Origin: Apostichopus japonicus
Taxonomy: Eukaryota; Echinodermata; Holothuroidea; Aspidochirotida; Stichopodidae
Direction: 5' to 3'
Assembly: GCF_037975245.1 (NCBI RefSeq)
Contig: NC_092569.1
Span: forward strand, 19,027,501-19,091,500
DNA: 64,000 nucleotides
Below are positions 6,991 through 46,483 of the stretch, one piece after another; the first letter of the stretch is position 1; each line of letters begins with the position of its first letter. The translations under genes were made by a program, and so were the position numbers. The notes under the pieces were generated by a model. That model searched no databases and was not told where the DNA came from. It saw only the letters and a program-made list of their open reading frames with translations.

Positions 6991-7866
6991 CTACAAAACT
7001 GCTTCTATTAGCAATAAATATCCATATTGTGTCAGTGTCACCGAAAGCAACATCGGAAGTGTCTTTCATGTCCCTGTTGAGAATATACGTGACGGTTAAA
7101 TAGTTCAAAAGTTATTTGCAAACAATATGCAAATGATCGATTCACATATTGCCTAGCGTTGCGAATTCGACAGTCAACAAATTGAGGAAACGAGTTATAA
7201 CAACAATGCTCCACCAATAGAAAGCGATGTCGTTTGCATGTTATAAATCATGCTTACTATTTAACAATATGCCCAACGATGGTGGATAAAATAGAATGAT
7301 TTGCAGCAACTGAAGAAGTATTCCACGTAAACGTAACCAAATATTACCAATCGATGGAGCCTTCAAATCAGTGACGTTAGTATAAACTCTATTTTGTTAG
7401 ACGCCAACTAAAATTTCCCAAGAAATATTCACCGCAGTCTTTGCTCCAGAGGTTTGTGACGAACAAGCAGTAATTTTCGATTTCTATTTAATTGCAATAA
7501 AACCTTTCACAGGTTTATATCATCTTTAAAGAAAGTAAAACCATAGCTGTTAGTATACAATATTATTGATTACATGTACTATCGCTCAATATCGAATGTA
7601 GGTTATACATAATGGGTATGACGAAAGTGCTTTCTGGATAAGTACAGTCGATGCTGCAATTTTAATATCGTAGTAATGCTACTTCACATATAGAAACATA
7701 TATGTCGGGGTAGTAATTTCCATTGCTAACAAGAAAGACAATTATATTCGATGTTCAGTTATCGATCGGTAAGGAGTGCTTTCTGCTTGCAACTAAATTT
7801 AATAGGCTTTTATCTTGAAATATGTATGTAGGTTAACAACAACGTTTAATTTCTTGATAGTCTTCT

Positions 7867-14561: not shown

Positions 14562-16079
14562 ATATGTGGATTACATCACTTACATAATGTATTTCTCTAT
14601 AAATATATGTGGCTAAAACACAAACGGAAACAAATTTACCTATATGAATATATGAGGCTTACACAACTAACATACTTATTCATAAATATCTGGGCTTACA
14701 TCACAAAGGTAATGGATTTATCGATGAATCTGTTTCTTACACAACTTTCATTATCGATTTATCTCTAAATATCCGGAATTAGAAAAACCACATAGACTAA
14801 TCTATGTAGCTAACAAAAGTTACATAGCTAATTTACATATGCAATGTGGTTTAATTGGCATACATAATGTATGAATCTAGGAATATTGTGTGTCTTTGAA
14901 TACATAAAAATCATATTTATATATGAGTACGTATGACCTGCATAGGTGAGTTATCTCTCAACATATGAGGCTTACAATATTTAGGAATATGATTAAACTA
15001 TAAATACCTGTTACTTAGAATACTTACGAATATATTAACTTATTTATGAATATCTGTGGCTTTGAACACTTACGGATAAGATTAAACTATGAATATTTGT
15101 GGTTTAGAATACTTACTTATTGGATTTCACTATGACTATCTGTAACTACCCGTAACTTAAAATACTTACGGATAGGATTAAACTATGAATATCCGTGGCT
15201 TAGAATACTAAATCATTTGATTTAACTATGAATATCTGTGGCTTAGAATACTTTCGAATATGATTAAACTATGAATATATGTGGCTTAGATGATTTACGA
15301 ATAGGATTAAACTATGAAAATTTGTGGCTTAGAATTATGACATATAGATTAACTTACTTATGAATATCTGTACCTTGGAATACTTACGAAGAGGATTAAA
15401 CAATGAATATCTGTAGCTAAGAATACTTACAAATAGGATTAACTATGTATATCTGTGGCTAAGGATACCTACGAACATATTTAAAACTATGTATATATGT
15501 GGCTTAGATACTTACTAATTGGATTAAACTATGATAATCTGTGGCTTAGAATACTTACAATAGGATTAAAATATTAATATCTGTGGTTCAGCATACTTAG
15601 GGATAGGATTAAATGATGAATATCCGTGGCTTAGAATACTTAATCATTAGATTTAGCTATGAATATCTGTAGCTTAGAATACTTTCGATTAGGATTAATC
15701 TATGAATATACGTGGTTTAGAATAATTACATATAGGGTTAATCTATGAACATCTGTGTGACTTCGAATACTTACGAACAGGATTAAACGATGAATATCTG
15801 TGGCTTAGAATACTTACAAATAGGATTAATCTTTAAATAGACTTAGAATACTTACGAATACTTAGACTTAGAATACTTACGAATAGTAATAATCTATGAA
15901 TATATGTGGCTTAAAATACTTACTTACAGTCTTAATCTATAAATATCGGTGGCTAAGAATACTTTCGAATAGGATTAAACTATTAATATCTATGGCTTAG
16001 AATACTTACAAAAAGGATTAATCTATAAATATCTGTGGCTTAGAATACTTACATATAGGCTTAAGTTATGAATATCTGT

Positions 16080-17100
16080 GGCTTAAAATACTTACAAATT
16101 GGCTTAACCTATGAATATCTGTGGCTTAGAATACTTGCAAATATAATTAATCAATGAATACCTGTGGCTTATAACACTTAATTATAGTATTAAACTATGA
16201 ATATCGAAGCTTAGAATACTTACGAATAGGATTAAACTACGAATATATGTGGCTTAGAATATTTAATTATAGTCTTAATCTATAAATATCGGTGGCTTAG
16301 AATACTTACGAATAGGATTAAACTATTAATATCTATGGCTTACAATACTTACAAATAGGCTTAAACTATAAATATATGTGGCGTAGAATACTTACAATAG
16401 GATTGATTAGAAAACTTACGAATAGGCTTAAGTTATGAATATATGTGGCTTAGAATACGTAAGAATTGGATTTAGTTATGAGTATCTGTGGCTTAGAATA
16501 CTTACGAATGAGCTTAAGTTATGAATATATGTGGCTAAAAATACGTAAGAATTGGATTTAGTTATGAATATCTGTGGCTTAGAATACTTACGAATTGGCT
16601 TAACCTATGAATATCTGTGGCTTAGAATACTTACTAATAGGCTTAATCTATGAATATCGATGGCTAAGAATACTTACGATTAGGATTAAACTATGAATAT
16701 CTGTGGCTTAGAATACTTACAAATAGGATTAATCTATAAATATCTGTGGCTTAGAATACTTACAAATAGGCTTAATCTATAAATAACAGTGGCTAAGAAT
16801 ACTTACGAATAGGATAAAACTATGAATATCTATGGCTTAGAAAACTTGCAAATAGGATTAATCTATAAATATCTGATCCTTAGAATACTTAAGTTAAGGC
16901 TTAAGTTATGAATATCCGTGGCTTAAAATACTTACAAATTGGCTTAACCTATGAATATCTGTGGCTTAGAATACTTGCAAATATGATTAATCAATGAATA
17001 TCTGTGACTTATAACACTTAATTATAGTATTAAACTATGAATATCGAAGCTTAGAATACTTACGAATAGGATTAAACTATGAATATATGTGGCTTAGACT
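16080..17100. repeat. 840-bp higher-order duplication inside the satellite
   Basis: The stretch starting GCTTAAAATACTTACAAATT at 16081 recurs at 16921. The distinctive run with AATCAATGAAT, then TTATAACACTTAATTATAG, then ATATCGAAGCTTAG is found at about 16150-16215 and again at about 16990-17055. The spacing is 840 bp, close to 19-20 basic units. Confidence 0.85.
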
Positions 17101-18289
17101 ATTTAATTATAGTATTAAACTATGGACATCGAAGCTTAGAATACTCACGAATAGGACTAAACAATTAATATCTGTGGCTTAGAATATTTACGAGTAGGAT
17201 TAATCTATACATATATATGACTTAGAATATATACCTACGAATAGTATTAATCTATGAATATATGTCGCTTAAAATACTTACTTACAGTCTTAATCTATAA
17301 ATATCGGTGGCTAAGAATACTTACGAATAGGATTAAACTATGAATATCTATGGCTTAGAATACTTACAAATAGGATTAATCTATAAATATATGTGGCTTA
17401 GAATTCTTACGTATAGGCTTAAGTTATGAATATATGTGGTTTAGAATACGAACGAATATGATTAAATTATGTTCATCGGCTGCTTAGAATACTTACGAGT
17501 AGGATAAATCTATACATATATATGACTTAGAATATATACCTACGAATAGGATTCATCTATGAATATCTGTTGTATATAATACTTAAAGTATTAAACTATG
17601 AATATCTGTAACCTATAATACTTACGAATAGGATGAAACTATCAATATCTGTGGCTTACAATACTTACGTATAGGCTTAAGTTATGAATCTATGTGGCAT
17701 AGAATACTTAATCATTGGATTTAGCTACGCATATCTGTGGCTTAGAATACTTACTAATAGGCTCAATCTATGAATATCGGTGGCTTAGAATACTTACGAA
17801 TAGGATTAAACTATCAATATTTGCGGCTAACAATACTTACAAATAGGATTAATCTATAAATATCTGTGGCTTAGAATACTTACGAATAGGCTTAAGTTAT
17901 GAATATATGTGGCTTAGAATACTTAAGAATTGGATTAATCTATTAATATATGTGGCTTAGAATACTTACGAATAGGATTAAATTATGAATATCTGTGGCT
18001 TAAAAAACTTACGAATAGGATTAAACTATTAATATCTGTGGCTTAGAATACTTACGAGTAGGATTAAGCTATGAATATCTGTGGCTTAGAATACTTACGA
18101 ATAGGATTAAACTACACCATTAACATAACAGCTGTATCTAGGAATATATGTGGCATACAATACTAACATTGAATATAGGTATCTATGAATAAATGTGGCC
18201 TACAACACCAACAAGACAGCTGTATCTATGAATATATTTGGCTTACAACACTAACATATAATATATATCATGAATATAAGCGACCTACA

Positions 18290-19230
18290 ACATAAACGTA
18301 ACATCTGTATCTATGAATATCTCTGGCGTACAACACTCACATAACAGCAATATCTATGAGTATATATGGTCTGCAACACTAACATAATAGATATATCTAT
18401 GAATATCTGTGGCCTGCAACACTAACATAGCATATGTATATATGAATATATGAAAATATGTGGCCTACAACACTAACAAAACAGCTGTATCTATGAATAT
18501 CTCTGGCGAACAACACTCACATAACAGCAATATCTATGAGTATATATGACCTGCAACACTAACATGATAGATATATCTATGAATATAAGCGGCCTACAAC
18601 ATTAACGTAACAGCTGTATCTATGAATATCTCTGGCCTACAACACTCACATAACAGCAATATCTATGAGTATATATGGTCTGCAACACTAACATAATAGA
18701 TATATCTATGAATATCTGTGGCCTGCAACACTAACATAGCATATGTATATATGAATATATGAAAATATCGGGCCTACAACACTAACAAAACAGTTGTATC
18801 TATGAATATCTCTGGAGTACAACACTCACATAACAGCAATATCTATGAGTATATATGGCCTGCAACACTAACATAATAGATATATCTATGAATATAAGCG
18901 GCCTACAACATTAACGTAACAGCTGTATCTATGAATATCTCTGGCCTACAACACTCACATAACAGCAATATCTATGAGTATATATGGTCTGCAACACTAA
19001 CATAATAGATATATCTATGAATATCTGTGGCCTGCAACACTAACATAGCATATGTATATATGAATATATGAAAATATGTGGCCTACAACACTAACAAAAC
19101 AGCTGTATCTATGAATATCTCTGGCGTACAACACTCACATAACAGCAATATCTATGAGTATATATGGCCTGCAACACTAACATAATAGATATATCTATGA
19201 ATATAAGCGGCCTACAACATTAACGTAACA
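18290..19230. repeat. 309-bp higher-order repeat, three copies
   Basis: TGGTCTGCAACACTAACATA occurs at 18367, 18676 and 18985, exactly 309 bp apart, and the flanking units between these points match almost perfectly. The 309-bp block is seven basic units with one carrying a short internal duplication (GAATATATGAAAATATG). This marks recent amplification within the older array. Confidence 0.93.
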
Positions 19231-19600
19231 GCTGTATCTATGAATATATGTGGCTTGCAACACTGACATAACAGCTGTATTTCTGAATATATGTGGCCTA
19301 CAACATTAACATAACAGCTGTATCTATGAATATATGTGACCTACAACACTTACATAGCATATGTATCTATGAAAATATGTGGTCTACAACATTAACAGAA
19401 CAGCGGTATCTATAAGTATATATGGCTTGCAACACTAACATAATAGATTTATCTATGAATATATGTGGCCTACAACACTAACGTAACAGCTGTATCTATG
19501 AATATATGTGGCCTGCATCACTAACATAATAGATGTATCTATGAATACATGTGGTCTACAACACTAACAAAACAGTTACATCTATAAATATATACACTAC

Positions 19601-28539: not shown

Positions 28540-29112
28540 ATTAAGTCATGTGTCGTCAATTTAATATATGCGAAGAAAATATTTTTTAACTGACTGAGTA
28601 ATCTTTTTGATGTTGATTCATTTAAAAAGCAGTACTGCCATGCAGGTGCATGCCACTTTGGTTTGTCAAATGTTCTCATTTGTTCCAGGTGATAAATAAA
28701 GCCATTAAAGTGATAGATATGTGAATAAATATATTCTTTTAAACTGAATTGTATTCTTTGTTTATTTTTGTTACGAACGGCAGCACGAAGTCGATTCTCA
28801 AGATGAATATCCTTAGTAGCTAAACCCTGCAATTGTTTCCAATGCAAGCTAACCGATAATAAATCAGTCAATTTTACAATCCAGTGAGAGTGATGTCCAC
28901 GTAAATGAAATATACACTGATGTCCACAGCAATTAAATATACACTGATGTCCACGTAAATGAAATATACACTGATGTCCACATAAATTAAATATACACTG
29001 ATGCCACAAAACTGCTTCTATTAGCAAAAAATCTCAATATTGTTTCAGTGTCACCGAAAGCAATATCGGAAGTGTCTTGATGTCCCTGTTGAGAATTTAC
29101 GTGACTGTTATA

Positions 29113-29143
29113 TCAGGGAGTTGTTATTGAAACAAATCCCTGG
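29113..29143 (-). mobile_element. 31-bp palindromic insert, copy a
   Basis: TCAGGGAGTTGTT at the left and the inverted AACAAATCCCTGG at the right make a 31-bp unit. It is absent from the same site in duplication copy 1. It is flanked by TTATA on both sides (29108-29112 and 29144-29148), a 5-bp target duplication. Reverse complemented, it matches the insert at 29340 in 28 of 31 positions. Confidence 0.7.
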
Positions 29144-29339
29144 TTATATAGTTCAAAAGTTATTTCCAAACAATATGCAAAGAAGCGATTACAATTTGTT
29201 TTAGCGTTGCGAATTCGACAGTCAGTAAATTGAAGAAACGAGCTAAAACAACAACGTTCCACTAATAGAAAGTGATGTCGTTTGCATGTTATAAATCATG
29301 CTTTCTGTTACACAATATGGCCAACGATGGTGGATTTAA

Positions 29340-29370
29340 TCAGGGATTTGTTTCCACAACAACTCCCTGA
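29340..29370 (+). mobile_element. 31-bp palindromic insert, copy b
   Basis: TCAGGGATTTGTT ... AACAACTCCCTGA, 31 bp, flanked by TTTAA on both sides (29335-29339 and 29371-29375). The homologous site in copy 1 (about 7285) lacks it. It lies in opposite orientation to the insert at 29113. Confidence 0.7.
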
Positions 29371-30157
29371 TTTAATGAAGTGATTTGCAGCAACTGAAGA
29401 AATAATGCACGTGAACTGCACAAAATATTAAAAATTGATGGAGTCTTCAAATTAGTGACGTAGTATAAACTCTTATTTGTTAGACGCCTACTAGAATTTC
29501 CCAAAATAGTCACCGCAGTTTTTGTTCTAGTATGTATAAAACATATAAAAGGTTTGTGACGACAGAGCAATGCTTTGCGATTTCTACTTATTTGCAATAA
29601 AACCTTTCACAGGTTTATATCATCTTTAAAGAAAGTAAAACCATAGCTGTTAGTATACATTATTATTGATTACATGTACTATCGCTCAATCCCTAATGTA
29701 GTTTGTACATAATGTTTATGACGAAAGTGCTTTCTGGATAAGTACAGTCGATGCTGCAATTTTAATATCGTAGTAATGCTACTTCACAGATAGAAACAAA
29801 TATCTCGAGGTAGTAATTTCCATTGCTAACAAGGAAGACAATTATATTTGATGTTCAGTTATCAATCGGTGATGAGTGCTTTCTGCTTGCAACTAAGATT
29901 AGTAGGCTTTTATCTTGAAATATGTATGTATAGGTTAACAACATCGTCAATTTCTTGGTAGAGAACGTTAGGCGAATAGGTAAATCGCTTAGAATATGCT
30001 ATCTATCTAATGATCCTATTTCCTACTTATTTATCCATTATTTATGTTAACCATTTCAGAACGGGAAAACCCTCTGCATTATAATAGTAATCTCTCCTAT
30101 ACGCTTTTCATACAACACAGATGTAAAGAAGTAGTCTGGGGGGGGGGGGGTGAGGTG

Positions 30158-39600: not shown

Positions 39601-41148
39601 TCCTCACAGTTTGCCAAGTTTCCTTTTGCTTTCTAGCTATGGTCACTTAAAGTAGGCAAATAGTACCAATTTGGTACTCTTTTGGTATTAAGTTGGTACT
39701 CTTTTGGTACTCTTTTGGTACCAATTTGGTACTCTTTTGGTGCCAATTTGGTACTCTTTTGGGTCACCCTGATGGTGGAATATTAGCAGAAATGTACTCT
39801 TGTCTCATCTGCATAATCTGTCATGGGCACAATGTTGCAGTGGTAGTCATTGGAGAGTCGCTGCATATCAATCTGGCCATTATCAGTTGGAATAAAACTG
39901 AAAACCCAAATTTCAGTTGAGCTACAGCGATTGTGAGTTTCTGGCGAAATTCTGTCACTTTTTTTCCACCGTGTTTGAACAACTGCCATTTCGTCATTTC
40001 ATTCGATTTGGCTGAAAATTCGGCAGTCAGTTGTGCGAATTAATTATCCATACATGTTGTCATATTTGATAAATTTGAGGTCACGAGAGGTCATATTTAT
40101 TTCGGTTTTTCATTTTCCTCCCAAACCCTCACGAGAGGTAATTTTTTCAGAAAACTTAAAAAATGCTACAACTCTAGAGGGTTTTTACAAATCTGCTTAA
40201 TTATTACAATTGAATGATAGTGCAAAAAAAATTCCATGTGAGGGTCCAAAGCAGAGTTGAAGACTTTATCAAGTCAAATGTTTACTTGTTATTCAGGCTT
40301 CTTATCTAGTTCGATGTCATTCTCTGTAAAAAGACTACTTGTCAGATTTGCAGGTTGACGTTTCCCACGGTTTGTTTATGTAATACAACATGTGAGCAAA
40401 ATCTATATGGTTGGAGCCGATTCCAATTTCTGCTCTTTAACGTTTTTCGGTGGTATGTCGATTGTAATCAAGTTGCAGGTCGTTCTATGATTTAATGGGT
40501 GCAATTTTCGTGGGCAATTCTGGGTCAGCACAATTCAAACGTGATATCCATAATATTTTAGCAGATTAAGCAGATGAATACTTTATTTACATTTTCGTTC
40601 TATTATTGCGTGAATTAAAACTACGATTCCCATGTACTGTTGGTTCTTTGTGTTTGCAATGGGGCATAGCTTATCCCTATAAATTAGTTCAACAATCTAT
40701 TTCATAAAATAAGTTCATGACAGTGTTTCCACTACGAAGGCATACAACTTCCTAACATTGTAACAAGCTATGTCTGCATAAGGAGCAAAAGGCAAGGGAA
40801 AAGGAGTTGGGAGAAAATGGAAATGACACCGTTATCCCGCCTATGTCTTATATTTTTCGCACAAACAAATGGGTAAACTGCTCAGAAATATACCCAATCA
40901 AAATTAATTTCGCAAATATATGCTTTGCTGTGCTTATGCAGCGTCGCTGCACTTGTTTTTTTTAATATTCGATTCAATCAGAATACGCCGTAGCTATAAG
41001 CATACCACTTTAACTTGACCTAATGCAGTGCAGACACGGTGAATGCTTTATTTCAATAAAATGATGTAGATCTAAGCACGATCTAGTGACTTGCGCAATG
41101 ATTGTTGTGCTGCGTTGTGTTGTGTTAATTGTGAATGAGCTAATGACA
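36677..41148. other. Intergenic region between genes A and B, no recognised gene
   Basis: AT-rich, with short frames of low-complexity content only. At 39660-39765 a short array alternates TTGGTACCAATTTGGTACTC and close variants, ending in TTTTGGGTCACCCTGATGG. The GGGTCACCC end resembles the terminus of the MITE at 21501. No other feature could be supported. Confidence 0.6.
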
Positions 41149-44264: not shown

Positions 44265-46483
44265 TCACGAACAAAGAGTGTTTCTCTTAACTACAAATGG
44301 CCTCCCACTTGTCTTCAGGAAGCCAAAATCTGCACCATTATTGACCTGTGAACAGAAAATATGATATACGTGTAAGCGCAGATACAGATATAGCACATGA
44401 TAACTCACATTATCATAAACATACATTAAATGTATTACATTTACATTAAAATTTTATAACATATTGGGAGGTATACATTTAAATCTAGGTCCCTCAAATT
44501 ATAAGCCAGGAATAGCAGCTTTACCAAATAATTATTAGCTTTGAACAGCATAACACCAAGTTATTTTTCAAAGCTTAATAATTATGTTAATCATGTTAAT
44601 AACGATCCCAATAGACCGGGAGCCCAGTGGGTTTGGTTAGCTGGGAAGGTAACCAATTGCCTTGTACATCACAATGTTCACAGTGCATTCCTGTATGTGA
44701 AACCAGACGACTGGCAACCGACTGTGGTGAGTGTGGCTGGGAGAGCAATTTTAAAGTCACCTGATAGCTAACCTAGATCAGTTTTCATGGTAACACATCA
44801 AAGTAAGTACAATGTGTCAGGTATGGCCCCAAGAGCAACAAATGACCATCGCCAGTAATTATTGGTGGTGGGGTACCCCTGCCAGTGATCTATAATTGAC
44901 CCCTCAAGGCTGACCTAGGTCAGCTCATGAGGTAACCACTTGAAACCTACTGGAAAATGTTGGTTAGGACTTCAGATACAACTGATGGGCATTGCCAGTA
45001 ATTTTTATTAGTGGGGTACCCCTGCCAATAGACCCCCAAAATGCCCATCCCCCATTGACCTAGATGAGCTCATGATGTAACCAGTTGAAAACTACTGGAA
45101 AATTGTATCACTTCATATATAAGGGATGGGCATTTCCAGTAATTTATATTGGGGGGGGTACCCCTTCCAGTAGACCCCCAAAATGCCCATTCCCTCATTG
45201 ACCTAGGTCAGCTCATGAGATAACCAGTTGAAAAATTACTGGAAATGATAGGTATCGTTTCATATGTAAGGGATGGGCATTTCTAGTCATTTACATTGGT
45301 GGGGTAACCCTGCCAGTAGACCCCCAAAATGCCCATCCCCCATTGACCTAGATTAGCTCATGAGGTAACCAGTTGAAAACTACTGTAAAATGATTGGCAG
45401 GACTCTATATGTAAGGGATGGGCATTGCCAGTAATTTTTATTGGTGGGGTACCCCTGCCAGTAGACCCCCAAAATGCCCCCCCCCCTCATTGATCTAGGT
45501 CAGCTCATGATTTAACCAGTTGAAAACTACTGGAAAATGATTGACAGGATTCTATATGTAAGGGATGGGCGGACTCTGGCAGTGGTGGCCCACCAATATA
45601 AAATACTGGATATGCCCATCCTTACATATGAAGTGATACCTATCATTTTCCTGTAGGTTTCAACTGGTCAAATCATGAGCTCATCTAGGTCAATGAGGGG
45701 ATGGGCATATTGGGGGTCTACTGGCAGGGGTACCCCACTAATAAAAATTACTGGCAATGCCCATCCCTTTTATCTGAAGTCCTAACCAACATTTTCCAGT
45801 AGGTTTCAAGTGGTTACCTCATGAGCTGACCTAGGTCAGCCGTGAGGGGTCAATTGTTGATCACTGGCAGGGGTACCCCACCACCAATAATTACTGGCGA
45901 TGGCCATTTGTTGCTCTTGGGGCCATACCTGACACATTGTTCTTACTTTGATGTGGTTACCATGAAAGCTGATCTAGGTTAGCTATTAGGTGACTTAAAA
46001 TTGCTCTCCCAGCCACATCCACCACAGTCGGTTTGCCAGTCGTCAGGTTTCATATACAGGAATGCATTGTGAACATTGTGATATACCAGGCAATTGGTTA
46101 CCTTCCCAGCTAACCAAACCCTCTGGACTCCCGCTCTACAGATCAGTGAAAATTTGACCAAACTTATGAAGCTTGCACGTAAATGATATACTAGACTGTT
46201 TTTTTTTTAAAACAGGTTATGAAAAGTATCTTTAATATCATTAAACAGTTGGGTACAATAGTTAAACTCACTCTTCCATCTTTTTTCTCTATGGTACTTG
46301 TTCCTTTGCTTTTTGGACTCTTGGATAAACTCTTTTGTTCTGCGAAGGGTACCAATATATCATCTTAAAACATGTCTTTAAGCCATATATAACACAGTTC
46401 TCCTCTTCTGTTGTTGCCTCCACACTGGTGTCATACATCACAGGAAACCTCACCCTTGACTTAGATATTTGGCTTTTCAATTC
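44265..46483 (-). CDS. Putative element-borne gene, two terminal exons
   Basis: On the minus strand, exon 46483-46289 follows TTTTTTTTTTCCAGCAG. It reads ELKSQISKSRVRFPVMYDTS, then VEATTEEENCVIYG, and runs to a TAG at 46289. A second piece, 44345-44265, follows a good acceptor (TTTTCTGTTCACAG). It reads VNNGADFGFLKTSGRPFVVK and ends in TGA, with an AATAAA signal about 150 bp further on (near 44118). The first piece must use an internal donor to join the second, and I cannot fix which one. The sequence looks like protein but I do not recognise the family. The gene would run in from the right end of the 43582-48356 element. The intron would contain the palindrome. Confidence 0.35.
44625..46150. 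repeat. Large imperfect palindrome with 147-bp tandem units in one arm
   Basis: The left arm from 44635 (GGTTTGGTTAGCTGGGAAGG) to about 45110 is the reverse complement of the right arm, about 45600-46130, with roughly 90 percent identity by eye. The left side continues with direct repeats carrying AGGGATGGGCATTGCCAGTA at 45123, 45271, 45416 and 45563, about 147 bp apart. These fill the loop of the hairpin. No coding content. Confidence 0.85.

Follow-up and report, generated by a model that had tools for sequence, protein, structure and literature searches.

Short palindromes with 7-bp target duplications in the Apostichopus japonicus genome as probable excision scars of a P-superfamily transposon

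The window (C9:19027501-19091500), by which we mean the whole 64-kb stretch of Apostichopus japonicus DNA analysed here, contains a region at approximately 5.9-7.9 kb (copy 1) that is repeated at approximately 27.9-30.0 kb (copy 2), with 1744 of 1916 aligned bases identical in the insert-bearing block. An ORF on the minus strand at 27246-28313 matches the rhodopsin-family receptors (7tm_1, 8e-24). Elsewhere, the window holds an array of approximately 4.6 kb at 14950-19600 built of a 43-bp unit (TATGAATATCTGTGGCTTAGAATACTTACGAATAGGATTAA type), in which longer periods of strong similarity appear around 18.2-19.3 kb, and a set of nested inverted repeats at 44612-46138, with arms of up to 259 nt that display 96 % complementarity and lie 644 nt apart.

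Copy 2 carries two short palindromic inserts. An earlier note on this DNA had described them as 31-bp units, inverted relative to each other, 227 bp apart and identical at 28 of 31 positions, and a direct letter comparison bore out their positions, orientation, spacing and identity. The boundaries required correction: the outermost base pair of each 31-mer belongs to the target, so that the true unit is 29 bp long, of the form CAGGG...CCCTG, and the flanking repeats are exact over 7 bp instead of the 5 bp originally claimed, unit and repeat still totalling 36 bp. The first unit (scar 1) occupies 29114-29142 on the plus strand, between copies of GTTATAT at 29107-29113 and 29143-29149, and comprises CAGGGAGTTGTTATTGA followed by AACAAATCCCTG, which we read as the two ends of an excised transposon, joined centrally. 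The second (scar 2) occupies 29341-29369 in the opposite orientation, reading CAGGGAGTTGTTGTGGA followed by AACAAATCCCTG on the minus strand, between copies of ATTTAAT at 29334-29340 and 29370-29376. The repeats, all annotated on the plus strand, are exact. Both scars display a 1-nt overlap at the centre, left-end changes (ATTG in scar 1, GTGG in scar 2) and a common right-end variant, CAGGGATTTGTT, which we designated the T-arm; the exact degenerate 30-mer was present genome-wide at these two places only. Hairpin z-scores of -5.46 and -5.93, with 0 of 200 shuffles equally good, indicate that the palindromes are not a product of chance. A scan of the window (64 kb) for palindromes of 20-39 bp enclosed by an exact repeat of 7-8 bp picked up both scars and one tandem-repeat match at 39718, and the same scan of three shuffled windows returned none. 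The additional match (39718-39754) is itself a palindromic tandem repeat, GTACCAATTTGGTAC-TCTTTTG-GTGCCAATTTGGTAC, with TCTTTTG on both sides.

Alignment of the two copies supported the earlier statement that copy 1 is empty at both sites, each insert forming a 36-bp gap. The single targets in copy 1, GTTAAAT at 7095-7101 and ATAAAAT at 7286-7292 (both plus strand), differ from the corresponding duplicated targets at one or two bases each. A third paralog on contig C22 (L006) also lacked both palindromes. As neither copy 1 nor this paralog carries them, both palindromes look like gains in copy 2. At site 2, L006 and L008 contain an unrelated short A/T-rich stretch that is absent from copy 1. 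No arm with fewer than two mismatches was identified in the window flanks (L003 and L004). A separate 19-bp insert (TATGTATAAAACATATAAA) with a short internal palindrome is present at 29531-29549 in copy 2 only, and no clear target duplication was found around it.

A genome-wide search (671.6 Mb, 35 contigs) was utilized to identify relatives of the two units. Searching with the locus as DNA yielded 33 matches, mostly to the insert alone and spread over many contigs, whilst the pattern CAGGGAGTTGTT-N5-AACAACTCCCTG, with up to three mismatches, occurred at 233 places, compared to 0 for the reversed control. The earlier note had held that a lack of other genomic copies would speak against transposition; instead, hundreds of relatives lie on many contigs, and this family duplicates 7 bp rather than 5. 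Among 50 listed of the 233 places, all with perfect arms, the abutting 7-bp repeat was exact in 32 and carried one mismatch in 13, two in four and three in one; none of the 50 displayed an exact flanking repeat of 8, 9 or 10 bp. As a control, left and right flanks of different places were paired, and of 2450 such pairs one was exact and 42 had at most one mismatch. The target consensus of the 50 listed places was GTNNNAC, with T at position 2 in 45 and A at position 6 in 41, and at the outer positions G (position 1) in 26 and C (position 7) in 25. IS481EU and other superfamilies with duplications of approximately 5 bp were dropped as candidates since the duplication is 7 bp, and no match emerged from phage records. 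Spacing of the 57 listed places on contig C1 revealed three neighbours within 1 kb, against 0.15 expected, one of them being a repeat within a single scar (L104), and a further arm with at most one mismatch was found in one of 15 3-kb loci (L035-L049); clustering of family places is only suggestive.

A longer parent with the same ends, which the earlier note had named as a check on its reading, was found in the form of four two-ended elements of 4.5-13.1 kb sharing a 33-bp terminal inverted repeat (TIR) that begins CAGGGAGTTGTTATGGAATG and starts with CAGGGAG. A pattern built to omit the common palindromes matched 302 places and yielded at least two kilobase-spaced facing pairs among the 100 listed; two more complete elements, on C12 and C17, came from a search with the first 25 nt of the TIR and up to two mismatches. 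The four elements lie at C2:29714454-29719013 (4560 bp, duplication GTTTAAC), C3:19626415-19638456 (12042 bp, GTCTGAC), C12:11435185-11439664 (4480 bp, GGTAATG) and C17:23626432-23639549 (13118 bp, CTGAAAC), and the 7-bp duplication is exact in all four. The TIR of the C2 and C3 elements is CAGGGAGTTGTTATGGAATGGAGTT[C/G]TGTCTTC, and the two elements align with one another to the left and right of nearly 7 kb of C3 interior that is absent from C2. Within the C2 element, at L112:4377-4415, there is also a 25-bp scar-like unit, CAGGGAGTTGTTATGGAATCTCCTG (minus strand), with exact 7-bp repeats TACAGAC.

The P-type RNase H domain (PF21787) matched 45 times in the genome, and a 628-aa open frame inside the C3 element displayed both PF21787 (1.8e-29) and PF12017 (2.1e-5). 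No GTP-binding domain was seen in this ORF; three further P ORFs in the genome have one. The part of the C17 element that was retrieved was 99.2 % identical to the C3 element over 4597 bp, with an equally long open frame. Since each long element carries its own TIRs and the two duplications differ, the transposase was evidently inside when the element moved, although the 628-aa ORF may be a nested passenger that was carried along rather than original to the element. The parent combines three features of the P superfamily, namely a P-type transposase, a duplication of 7-8 bp and a TIR of approximately 30 bp that starts with CA. Six other transposase loci (L105-L107, L109-L111) displayed no facing pair of these TIRs within stretches of 4.5-5.2 kb, although L111 contained one TIR arm with one mismatch and no partner; this result says little, as the C3 and C17 elements span 12-13 kb. 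Convergent to the C3 transposase ORF is a 365-aa ORF (L122:2137-3231; C3:19635137-19636231, minus strand), with a 99 % copy in the C17 element, whose C2 counterparts gave no Pfam match at the curated cut-off. Relatives of this ORF, with identity down to 30 %, are also convergent to other P-transposase matches on C17 (at approximately 16.77, 17.78, 20.92, 21.11 and 25.08 Mb), and blastp gave it only a weak similarity (E 0.011 and 0.036) to the C-terminal region of other P ORFs; the ORF may represent a second gene in a P-superfamily lineage.

The first 16 nt of the TIR (CAGGGAGTTGTTATGG) occur exactly at 1977 places in the genome. We examined junctions at 20 of the 100 listed among these, all on C1 and taken in listing order. 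Two-armed units were present at 16 of the 20, comprising 17 units in all, and the other four had no clean second arm, L085 and L088 being one-armed and L100 and L101 having a mutated second arm. The one-armed places were considered as parent ends and rejected: L088 runs into a local repeat, and neither yielded a parent. The 17 units measured 25, 26, 27, 28, 29, 31 or 34 bp with constant ends, and their 7-bp repeats were exact in eight, with one mismatch in three and two, three or four mismatches in two each. Overall, units of 25-36 bp were observed, varying at the centre. Most centres fit the joining of two identical tails, CAGGGAGTTGTTATGGAA, as in (overlap bracketed) ATGG(AA)CAAC for 28 bp, ATGG(AA)CTCCC for 25 bp, ATGGA(A)ACAAC for 29 bp, ATGG(A)CAAC for 27 bp and GTT(AT)AAC for 26 bp. 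The overlap was 2 nt in ten of the 17 units, 1 nt in two and absent in one, and four contained unmatched bases; all 77 possible direct joins (12-18 with 8-18 nt) would give a 2-nt overlap in 11 cases and a 1-nt overlap in 21. The binomial probability of ten 2-nt overlaps in 17, 2.6e-5, is a guide only, because it assumes equally likely joins and independent scars, and L089 and L090 share flanks.

A larger set of 89 units (22-42 bp, starting CAGGGA and ending TCCCTG), which was partly selected by flank or spacer and counts copies in duplicated DNA separately, displayed a 1-nt overlap in 42 units, 2 nt in 19, none in nine and unmatched bases in 19. The longest match of any arm to the TIR in this set, from which the longer products (the whole of L115 and the L117 68-mer) and L130 were left out, was 19 nt. 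End variants recurred with different junctions. The T-arm was found in both window scars (29 bp), in L027 (28 bp) and in L018 and L030 (26 bp; two copies of one duplicated place), and the ATTG variant in window scar 1 (29 bp) and L010 (26 bp). This pattern argues against a mobile 29-mer, as a copied mini-element would carry its centre along.

Retention of the TIR falls abruptly. In comparison to the 1977 places for the first 16 nt, the first 20 nt were present at 26 places, and the first 25 nt gave 17 exact ends, or 24 with up to two mismatches. Approximately 1950 places (1977 - 26) therefore match the TIR over its first 16 nt without reaching nt 20, whereas no more than 26 extend that far, and by this count nearly all arms in the genome appear to end somewhere from nt 16 to nt 20. 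The palindromes retain up to approximately 18 nt of the TIR from either end, and the 26 longer matches are not all intact ends: L116, L118 and L119 leave the element sequence immediately after nt 20, and L115, L117 and L130 are partial products. These last three retained more. L130 (83 bp, flanked by exact GTCATAC) comprises approximately 66 bp of one end and a short other end, and L117 (68 bp, flanked by exact GTTCGAC) approximately 58 bp of one end and a short other end. L115 is a complex product in which a 36-mer (18 + 18 nt) lies beside 60 bp of one end, and no clean 7-bp repeat was found there; the junctions of L115 and L130 fall at 17-18 nt. L104 contains a 22-bp direct repeat of target and tail that looks like a templated insert. 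At L091:94-166 (C1:3254291-3254363), 25- and 27-bp units with different centres follow each other head to tail, separated by a single target copy, an arrangement that would fit repeated use of one site; the outer right target copy is mismatched at four of seven bases. At L009:1501-1610 (C22:12434820-12434929), three 29-bp palindromes lie in tandem with a period of 36, separated in each case by one 7-bp target-like copy.

We consider it very probable that each palindrome marks a donor site, since healed, from which a P-superfamily transposon was excised. In the first step of the proposed process, an element with the 33-bp TIR would insert and duplicate a 7-bp target, with the approximate GTNNNAC preference seen across the family. 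The transposase would then cut one strand at the element end and the other approximately 17-18 nt into the repeat, leaving a 3' tail, CAGGGAGTTGTTATGGA(A), on each side of the gap; we infer this cut from the TIR length in the scars and from the biochemistry of Drosophila P. Finally, the tails would be sealed by end joining, often at 1-2 nt of microhomology and sometimes after partial copying of the gap. The junctions of this last step are observed directly, and Pol theta is the likely enzyme. The expected residue is a 25-36 bp palindrome between two copies of the target. In copy 2, the process would have occurred twice, in opposite orientations, after copies 1 and 2 separated. Given the right-end variant that they have in common, the two window scars probably derive from one subfamily, perhaps by a local hop. 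Excision and its cut position are read here from scars, sampled at 20 of the 1977 16-nt places; the stagger is best read as 17-18 nt.

Comparable residues have been described in Drosophila. The P transposase cleaves the element at its 3' end and, on the other strand, 17 bp inside its 31-bp repeat, generating 17-nt extensions (PMC7776569). PMC2895639 gives P as starting with CA and describes repair junctions consisting of the 8-bp duplication, up to 17 nt of TIR, microhomology or a small insert, the reversed TIR and the duplication again, some junctions losing more sequence. The Apostichopus japonicus units resemble the D. melanogaster P{wa} scars in their flanking duplications, TIR tails and short microhomology, blunt or small-insert joins, and differ in a duplication of 7 bp rather than 8 and a tail limit of approximately 18 nt rather than 17 (PMC2895639). 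Two further classes of the P{wa} assay also appear here, partial gap copying followed by joining (L117, L130) and an apparent templated insert (L104), yet unlike in that assay the scars are natural, numerous and situated in the assembled genome of another organism (PMC2895639). Galileo of Drosophila likewise has a P-type transposase and 7-bp duplications, with the consensus GTANTAC there and GTNNNAC here, but its TIRs are unusually long, reaching kilobases in some copies, in contrast to 33 bp here, near the 31 bp of P (PMC4168063). TIRs of the P superfamily span 27-31 bp in PMC1562414.

The observations of a target duplication, a genome-wide family and kilobase-sized parents with the same ends support the earlier view that transposition was involved, whereas the idea of a 31-bp minimal MITE with 5-bp duplications did not survive, given the 7-bp duplication, the variable centres and the few places that keep more than 18-19 nt. 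A truly mobile MITE of 25-36 bp, amounting to little beyond two inverted repeats and moved in trans by a P-type transposase, is nonetheless the best of the alternatives, if an improbable one. Many identical 29-mers do lie at unrelated sites with exact 7-bp duplications, elements that could supply a transposase exist in the genome, and the parental TIR and target duplication expected of a MITE are present, as they would be for any excision scar. However, the interior that MITE copies inherit in common is absent: the units have no interior, their centres read as joined parental ends, which accounts for the variation, and end variants occur across different junction lengths. That 25-36 bp units vary centrally in the manner of joined 33-bp TIR ends points to excision repair and not to copying of a fixed mini-element. 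The fall in retention between nt 16 and nt 20 of the TIR also opposes a mobile unit, and a 29-bp duplex could hardly pair its own ends. Drosophila P requires 138 and 216 bp of terminal sequence, and P-MITEs of anophelines retain somewhat less than 100 bp per end (PMC1562414). The Anopheles gambiae P-MITEs are similarly short and non-autonomous, with P-family ends and P-type target duplications, but those have a central region that is inherited, together with longer P-derived ends and duplications of 8 bp, unlike the interior-free units with variable junctions seen here (PMC1562414).

Internal deletion through aborted gap repair, in which sister-templated synthesis precedes end joining, is less probable still as the general route. 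L117, L130 and L115, with approximately 58-66 bp of one element end, fit products of this kind, matching the SDSA+EJ class of P{wa} (PMC2895639), yet by count nearly all arms end before nt 20, where no synthesis is needed; aborted gap repair is a minority route of the same excision process. A local event of templating or replication slippage, restricted to this locus and raised as the alternative in the earlier note, draws on the proximity of the two inserts, their common variant and the restriction of the exact 30-mer to them, but hundreds of relatives on many contigs, those examined having 7-bp duplications of their own, and the full-length parents refute it as an account of the family, leaving it the barest chance and at most a role in one scar seeding the other.

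Several observations count against the excision reading. Duplications were imperfect at 18 of the 50 listed places and 9 of the 17 C1 units, and one 29-mer accounts for 38 of the 50 listed places, a set chosen for its 5-nt spacer. The four C1 places without a clean second arm, together with L116, L118 and L119, are unexplained or decayed. The tail of approximately 18 nt exceeds the 17 nt of Drosophila P, and the right-end variant of the window scars was on none of the parent ends found with up to two mismatches.

If healed excision is the correct reading, an apparent record-small transposon becomes a pair of excision scars with an identifiable parent family, and a caution follows: a short palindrome flanked by target duplications need not be an element and can be a scar. 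The family appears to be a new one of the P superfamily with an unusually legible excision record, though it may already stand in Repbase or Dfam. Among the titles and abstract openings listed, our literature search showed no genome-wide set of P-type scars, and among the papers listed no description of the family; a printed account is possible. This kind of scar is already known from Drosophila experiments; the number and clarity of natural scars are the interesting part. Scars may also be preferred sites of re-entry, as in L091 and L009 scars stand in tandem and share an intervening target copy. The long elements, with their open transposase frames, are candidates for biochemistry. On balance, we favour the view that this genome is a legible ledger of its own P-type excisions, in which excision has removed most of the family's insertions and the scars record germline end joining. 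Were this so, microhomology, templated inserts and partial gap repair could be read without experiment, and a genome with so many scars would permit a statistical reading of the P-superfamily cut position and of animal germline end joining outside Drosophila.
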